NCBI RefSeq assembly: GCF_040054535.1
Contig: NC_090785.1
Coordinates: 5,823,501-5,887,500, forward strand
Reading direction: 5' to 3'
DNA length: 64,000 nucleotides
Origin: Antennarius striatus
Taxonomy: Eukaryota; Chordata; Actinopteri; Lophiiformes; Antennariidae
Part shown: in pieces, positions 1,739-63,415 of the stretch
Numbering within the stretch: position 1 is the stretch's first letter
How the letters are laid out: every line of letters begins with the position of its first letter
The notes under the pieces: model-generated
What the model was told of the DNA's origin: nothing
The model's input: the letters and a program-made list of their open reading frames with translations, nothing else
The model's database searches: none
Program-made: the position numbers and the translations under genes

Positions 1739-26625
<24,887 letters not shown>

Positions 26626-28242: not shown

Positions 28243-28428
28243 CGAGGATGTAGCTCATTGGTAGAGCACATGTATCACATGTATGCTGCTCTGGGTCCAA
28301 TTCCCAGCATCTGCAGTCCTATGAGGGCACAAGCCAGTGTCGACTGTAGGACGGTCCCAAGCCCGGATAAATGCACAGGGTTGCGGCAGGAAGCGTGTAA
28401 AAAAAATTCCTAAACAAATATGAACGGG
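28243..28428 (+). repeat. tRNA(Ala)-like SINE whose body matches the 5' end of the RTE-like LINE
   Basis: The head looks like a decayed tRNA-Ala: box A TAGCTCATTGGTAGAGCA (28251-28268) and box B GGGTCCAATTCC (28293-28304). From about 28324 the body (GGCACAAGCCAGTGTC, then GGTCCCAAGCCCGGATAAAT, then GGGTTGCG.CAGGAAG) matches the first ~110 bases of the LINE starting at 59206. It is a SINE and not a functional tRNA gene, because the acceptor stem does not close. Confidence 0.75.
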
Positions 28429-28459
28429 GGAGGGTAGTTTGAATGGGATCAGCATTTCT

Positions 28460-28930
28460 GTCCGTGTAGGTTCCGTTATCCAGGTCATGGTTATCCAAAG
28501 CTGTTTAAATCAATCCACTGGAAGTTAAGAAAGTTCTAGAAGACGTTTCGTCTCTCATCCAAGAGACTTCTTCAGTTCTGAAGGTGGCTGATCATGTCCC
28601 AGGTTATTAACCCTGTGTGGTCAGTGCTACTCACATTCCAACGACCATCGTTGAAACCTGTCTGGCTCCTCAACGATTGTTGGTGGGGGTGTCAAAGGGG
28701 GTCGCTGAGATGGTAGTTGTATGGTAATGAGGGTCATTAGCATGAGACACATCACCTGGGTCAATCTGCTGAGACGATCTTTTTAGGAGTTTTGAAAGGA
28801 CATGATTGTAAATGGGAGAAAGGTGTTGTCGCAGATCACCTCCCCCGTACAGAGATGGCTTCTCCACTTCTCCACGTCAAAGTGGAGAACTTTCTTAACG
28901 TCCGGTGGATTGACTAAAACAGCTTTGGAT
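28460..28930 (-). mobile_element. Truncated Penelope-like element with 13-bp target duplication
   Basis: Bounded by the direct repeat GATCAGCATTTCT (28447-28459 and 28931-28943). The minus strand reads, in order: an inverted piece of the terminal repeat (28930 to about 28885); an open segment (about 28867-28670) with PSLYGGGDLRQHLSP, which matches the conserved stretch after the GIY-YIG endonuclease of vertebrate Penelope-like proteins; a short untranslated part; a hammerhead ribozyme; and the terminal repeat out to 28460. Reverse transcriptase and most of the endonuclease are missing, so the copy is 5' truncated. The inverted end piece is a known feature of Penelope integration. Confidence 0.75.
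28533..28584 (-). ncRNA. Hammerhead ribozyme with intact core
   Basis: Read on the minus strand: CTGAAGA (28575-28569); stem II GTCTCT (28567-28562) with AGAGAC (28555-28550); GAAA (28549-28546); then CGTC (28545-28542), with the predicted cut after the C at 28542. Stem I is TTC-A-GAA before the core, pairing with TTC-TA-GAA after it. Stem III is the loopless palindrome ACGT, implying a dimeric minimal hammerhead. All invariant core bases are present. Confidence 0.75.
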
Positions 28931-28943
28931 GATCAGCATTTCT

Positions 28944-31300
<2,357 letters not shown>

Positions 31301-58277: not shown

Positions 58278-63415
<5,138 letters not shown>

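Follow-up and report, generated by a model that had tools for sequence, protein, structure and literature searches.

The window analysed here, 64,000 nt of Antennarius striatus DNA, contains a 471-nt insertion on the minus strand (28460-28930), whose limits are given by a target duplication and by the ends of two arms. The flanking repeats (GATCAGCATTTCT, at 28447-28459 and 28931-28943) are identical over 13/13 nt. When 20,000 random pairs of window positions were compared with the same slack, a common word of at least 7 nt was found in 357 pairs, of at least 8 nt in 107, of at least 10 nt in 17 and of at least 13 nt in one; the 13-bp target duplication claimed in an earlier note on this DNA is thus borne out. 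Read on the minus strand, the insertion holds the C-terminal tail of an open reading frame (64 aa, 28673-28864) and a long arm (28460-28576), a segment of 117 nt common to genome copies that runs from the core of a hammerhead motif (28530-28585; core 28542-28575) to the 3' end of the element and includes a tail of 33 nt (about 28460-28492). At its 5' side the insertion closes with a short arm on the plus strand (28886-28930), which lacks the tail and is an inverted piece, 45 nt long, of the 3' end of the element itself. One comparison of this piece with the opposite end gave 50 nt at 88% complementarity, and a second gave 45 nt at 91% identity. Because its 5' side carries this inverted arm, the copy is not the plain 5' truncation that the note had described. 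The sequence and its relatives in the genome support identification of the insertion as a fragment of a Penelope-like element (PLE) that carries a hammerhead and lies inside a 13-nt duplication.

A second PLE copy is located at 22111-22236 on the plus strand and spans the region from the start of the hammerhead to the end of the tail. It is 93.7% identical to the first copy over 126 columns, and its core is broken by a change of GAAA to AAAA. Judged by eye, the sequences that flank it, ACATTCAGTTC and ACATGCAGTTC, agree at 10 of 11 positions (22103-22247 overall); the automatic repeat search chose another 9-nt match.

Translation of the window on the minus strand gives the peptide PSLYGGGDLRQHLSPIYNHVL..., and the 64-aa tail as a whole reads PSLYGGGDLRQHLSP.... 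A search of the 548-Mb host genome (42 contigs) returned at least 150 scored matches to this tail, the window's own included, which is a lower bound as they came from 632 first-look candidates. The first relatives listed are 70-80% identical to the peptide, and several sit at the end of longer open frames, in agreement with the PLE peptide proposed earlier. The ORF of endonuclease-bearing PLEs codes for a telomerase-like reverse transcriptase and a GIY-YIG endonuclease, and four such longer frames were compared with Pfam. Two of them matched both a reverse transcriptase and a GIY-YIG domain below the curated cut-offs (L041: RVT_1, E 5e-5, and GIY-YIG, E 0.0049; L047: GIY-YIG, E 0.00043, and RVT_1, E 0.0055), and the other two (L043 and L044) had no Pfam match. 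The 64-aa tail alone found no match in Pfam or in a PDB sequence search, tblastn found none in phages, and none of the 23 stretches in viral_contigs that fit the peptide pattern was confirmed. The reading of this peptide as the tail that follows a GIY-YIG endonuclease is weakly indicated by the sub-cut-off domain matches and by the PLE proteins of fish.

The hammerhead of the window copy reads, on the minus strand, CTGAAGA - A - GTCTCT - TGGATG - AGAGAC - GAAA - CGTC. All letters of the core (CUGANGA ... GAAA ... UH) are there together with stems I and II, stem II being formed by GTCTCT and AGAGAC and closed by TGGATG. The complete core that had been claimed is therefore found as far as its letters go; the claim had passed over one extra, unpaired A between CTGAAGA and stem II. 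An extra A at the same place occurs in a viroid hammerhead. Stem I is short, and stem III is indeed no more than the palindrome ACGT without a loop. Cleavage would be expected after C28542, the same position as was predicted before.

The motif was also searched for with covariance models. Rfam 15 at gathering level found no hammerhead in the whole window, although its models may not see the PLE type, and with E values up to 10 it found none in 28300-29100 or in 28500-28610. The lack of a covariance-model match had been put forward as evidence against the motif and, taken with Rfam, that test is negative. Monomer and dimer folds computed with ViennaRNA returned no hammerhead. A model built from 16 genome copies, with the window copy left out (model R1), scored 83.4 bits at 28530-28585 (minus) and 77.9 bits at 22108-22163 (plus), and its third match in the window reached 15.5 bits (E 0.2). 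The match at 28530-28585 speaks for family membership, not for catalysis.

Across the host genome, the pattern CTGANGA...GAAACGTC matched 685 times and the reversed pattern 112 times, which is more than chance. Hammerhead patterns searched in viral_contigs and genome_contigs gave no match. In 47 distinct 34-nt forms taken from among the pattern matches listed, the six positions of stem II are paired in 244 of 282 cells, with all six pairs present in 18 forms. When the 3' letters were shuffled 2000 times among the forms, paired cells averaged 237.6 (sd 2.2) and never exceeded 246; pairing in stem II is therefore in modest excess. The covariation lies mainly in one pair, which is CG in 25 and TA in 15 of the 47 forms; among the 16 aligned genome copies, 12 have UA and 4 have CG at this pair. 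Stems I and II of these 16 copies show pairing in 97.9% of their cells, compared with 95.8% after shuffling, and the number of further pair types is not above that of the shuffles. The hammerhead also lies downstream of the ORF tail in loci that were found by the ORF tail. Among 18 such loci (L030-L047, of which L031 and L047 overlap), 16 have at least one arm that starts at the core, 22 arms in all, and CTGANGA and GAAA are both kept in 14 of these 22.

It could be that the hammerhead letters no longer function, whether in this copy alone or throughout the family, and are a relic within a sequence kept for another reason, such as binding of the element's protein or a role as its start region. 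The absence of an Rfam match, the loss of G12 in the second window copy and the 8 of 22 ORF-tail arms that lack an intact core are all consistent with a relic, as is the finding that ribozyme mutants of the anole PLE insert equally well in vitro (PMC11167929). Conservation of the core letters and of stem II, where many copies show a two-sided change of one pair, points the other way, and the anole ribozyme does cleave when the protein is present (PMC11167929). We consider a relic possible but doubtful.

PLEs with hammerheads have been published before, in keeping with the earlier statement that hammerheads are known from PLEs (PMC6155905; PMC7229834; PMC11167929). PLE hammerheads are described as usually lacking helix III (PMC6155905) and as minimal type I variants (PMC7229834), and the title of Lunse, Weinberg and Breaker (2017) states that such variants cleave RNA as dimers. 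The motif reported here resembles the minimal type I hammerheads of PLEs (Cervera and De la Pena 2014; Lunse, Weinberg and Breaker 2017) in having no closed helix III, the feature described for PLE hammerheads in PMC6155905, and this family has the extra A before stem II, a comparison made by description and not by letters. With hundreds of pattern matches in the genome and a published association, neither the motif nor the copy is unusual.

The closest known systems belong to the Penelope/Poseidon clade. The anole (Anolis) element PAc shares the hammerhead at a repeated end region, two adjacent start sites of reverse transcription and the tail (PMC11167929). Its protein acts on both strands, cutting and extending them; reverse transcription begins at two adjacent internal sites of the RNA, and the tail seen in genomic copies is the stretch between them. 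Its hammerhead cleaves only with the protein present (PMC11167929). Pen2a of the rotifer Adineta vaga has inverted pseudo-LTRs (pLTRs) with duplications, and one of these pLTRs optionally bears a 31-bp tail (PMC3846280); inverted pLTRs and short 3' extensions are listed among the peculiarities of PLE copies (PMC8969392). The insertion in the window differs in its 33-nt tail, its 13-nt duplication and the retention of only the ORF tail. All parts of the element are already known, as is the combination of PLE and ribozyme, and so this copy by itself adds little. Its mirrored ends record how such elements insert.

The ends of related insertions were surveyed in 67 sequences, namely the two window copies plus genome loci that either the ORF tail or the ribozyme pattern had brought in, a sample that is a small part of the family. 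L029, which is the window copy, and L006, which is the same place as L009, were dropped; L031 and L047 overlap. Ends were classed as short (76-95) or long (at least 110) with a slack of 7 nt, class limits and slack having been fixed after a first look in which some arms overran narrower limits. Arms of the element's 3' end were found in 64 of the 67 sequences and number 104, of which 53 are long and run through the 33-nt tail, 34 are short and 17 are neither. The two end types lie about 33 nt apart, in line with the 3' tail of 30-40 nt that PLEs may carry. Within 4 kb there are 25 inverted pairs of arms, which, like the window copy, fit the pseudo-LTRs of PLEs, often accompanied by an inverted end piece. 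Duplications of 7-14 nt flank 17 of the 25 pairs, as expected for the variable target duplication of PLEs, compared with 1.8% of random window pairs reaching at least 7 nt.

The pairing of the two end types is regular. A long arm is combined with a short one in 21 of the 25 inverted pairs; where the scored duplication is 7 nt or more this holds for 17/17 pairs, at 8 nt or more for 12/12 and at 10 nt or more for 10/10; random pairs of window positions reach the latter two lengths in 0.5% and 0.09% of cases. If end types were dealt independently at 53:34, the chance of 12/12 would be near 1e-4, a figure that ignores relatedness among the copies. Four long-plus-short pairs have no scored duplication. 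The remaining four pairs (L003, one of L013, L020 and one of L044) are short plus short or long plus long; none had a duplication scored in the survey, and two of them span a second pair of their own locus. L020 is a possible exception, with a 12-nt repeat located 14 nt outside its right arm. L030, which combines a long and a short arm and has a 14-nt repeat, was missed by the survey because its right arm was cut short. The inner sequence may continue from either arm. Tails and inverted ends are known features of PLEs; strict long-plus-short pairing in duplication-flanked inverted insertions may be new. The PAc and Pen2a papers describe the tail as optional or as a feature of part of the copies, whereas each duplication-flanked inverted pair scored here carries exactly one, and no statement of strict end pairing was found in the part of the PLE literature covered.

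Starting from the observed anatomy, duplication, family and tailed-plus-untailed pairing in relatives, we infer an order of steps, the template used and a possible cleavage of this copy's RNA. The target would be opened by a staggered cut about 13 nt wide, with target-primed reverse transcription on both strands. A first reverse transcription would start at the distal of two adjacent RNA sites, producing the 33-nt tail, and extend beyond the hammerhead into the last part of the ORF. A second would start at the proximal site on the opposite target strand and copy only about 45 nt. Joining of the two DNA ends head to head would then account for the 13-nt duplication as well as the inverted ends. 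Since its stem III is not closed, the hammerhead of the transcript would depend for cleavage on a dimer or on assistance by the element's protein.

We assign a probability of about 0.8 to insertion by target-primed reverse transcription on both strands with head-to-head joining. A two-strand mechanism is favoured by relatives built alike and by a duplication and inverted arms that coincide exactly with the insertion's ends, and the two-strand cutting and extension and the two start sites of the anole PLE also argue for it (PMC11167929). The weak reverse transcriptase and GIY-YIG matches of ORF-tail relatives and the position of the hammerhead downstream of the ORF tail speak for a PLE-based explanation. 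Points that count against it are the absent Rfam match, the ViennaRNA folds without a hammerhead, the Pfam scores below cut-off, the four short-plus-short or long-plus-long pairs among 25, and the dispensability of the anole ribozyme in vitro, where the start sites are moreover equal on both strands (PMC11167929). A stricter rule, in which each of two adjacent start sites serves one target strand and the same site is never used twice, seems to us to stand at even odds. It would imply coupled, asymmetric priming, for example by one RNA or one protein dimer serving both strands; such coupling is proposed here and is not reported in the in vitro work on the anole PLE. The genome-wide comparison yields a rule, open to testing, by which the two reverse-transcribed ends of PLE insertions would be made and joined.

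An inverted arm could also arise from a single reverse transcription if the DNA end folded back and primed a second synthesis on itself. The inner junction of the window copy has, by eye, a short palindrome (TTCTCCACTT...AAGTGGAGAA), and the rotifer PLE paper argues for self-priming from palindromes at inverted junctions (PMC3846280). Fold-back alone would not stop the second arm at the other start site, however, and all 17 duplication-scored pairs end at two different sites; that the inner sequence can continue from either arm also disagrees with it. We regard self-priming as improbable relative to the two-strand mechanism. A non-autonomous DNA transposon with terminal inverted repeats, in which peptide and hammerhead are incidental, would explain the inverted ends and the flanking duplication and is scarcely credible, given that the ends are the element's own 3' end and unequal by the tail, that inner lengths vary from 161 to 1378 nt in the 17 duplication-scored pairs, that some copies have no inverted arm, and that ORF-tail relatives extend into frames with reverse transcriptase and GIY-YIG matches.

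The window holds another candidate ribozyme, which lies at a LINE's 5' end. The LINE frame (59292-62303) matches RVT_1 (5.9e-37) and Exo_endo_phos (7.8e-9), and at the LINE's 5' end, 59198-59276 (plus), Rfam reports twister-P1 with 46.1 bits (E 5.5e-9), under the gathering score of 67.2. This fold may represent a twister by which the LINE RNA acquires its 5' end. Twister ribozymes cut between U and A, and the putative cut point would fall just before (A)AUGUAGCC. Among six LINE 5' ends in the loci examined, those of the window, L008, L036, L056 and L067 start at ATGTAGCC, where the query itself began, and that of L009 starts five bases later. The only agreement among the preceding letters is a single A, shared by four of five copies. 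The LINE starts fall about where a twister would cut. The U position at the cut, which comes from the flank, is T in L008 and L036, A in L056 and C in L067; the window copy has T for the first A, and 12 nt of the twister core are missing from L067.

Left of the PLE insertion, a tRNA-like element at 28244-28384 (plus) matches the same twister family weakly (22.6 bits, E 0.033) and has no UAA at the cut. Rfam calls its first part (28244-28315) a tRNA, although ARAGORN found no tRNA in the whole window. L040 contains a similar tRNA-like element with a twister-like fold at about 590-720, again without UAA at the cut. These elements are probably a SINE composed of a tRNA and the LINE 5' end. In an alignment of eight twister-like sequences, whose helices follow the Rfam match apart from one placed by eye, pairing covers 94.0% of cells (87.8% when shuffled), four pairs change on both sides (2.1 when shuffled, four being reached in 30 of 500 shuffles), and covariation is 0.256, compared with 0.138 for shuffled and at most 0.111 for slid alignments. 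No report of a twister in a fish LINE or SINE was found by title or abstract in the part of the literature covered, and the word is absent from the text of a review of fish mobile elements. HDV-like ribozymes act at other LINEs and, if active, the LINE twister would be another ribozyme class doing the same task. A second, broken LINE copy is present at 18658-20274, where two stretches match the LINE's 3' part (61559-62334) in inverted orientation, with identities of 95% and 97%.
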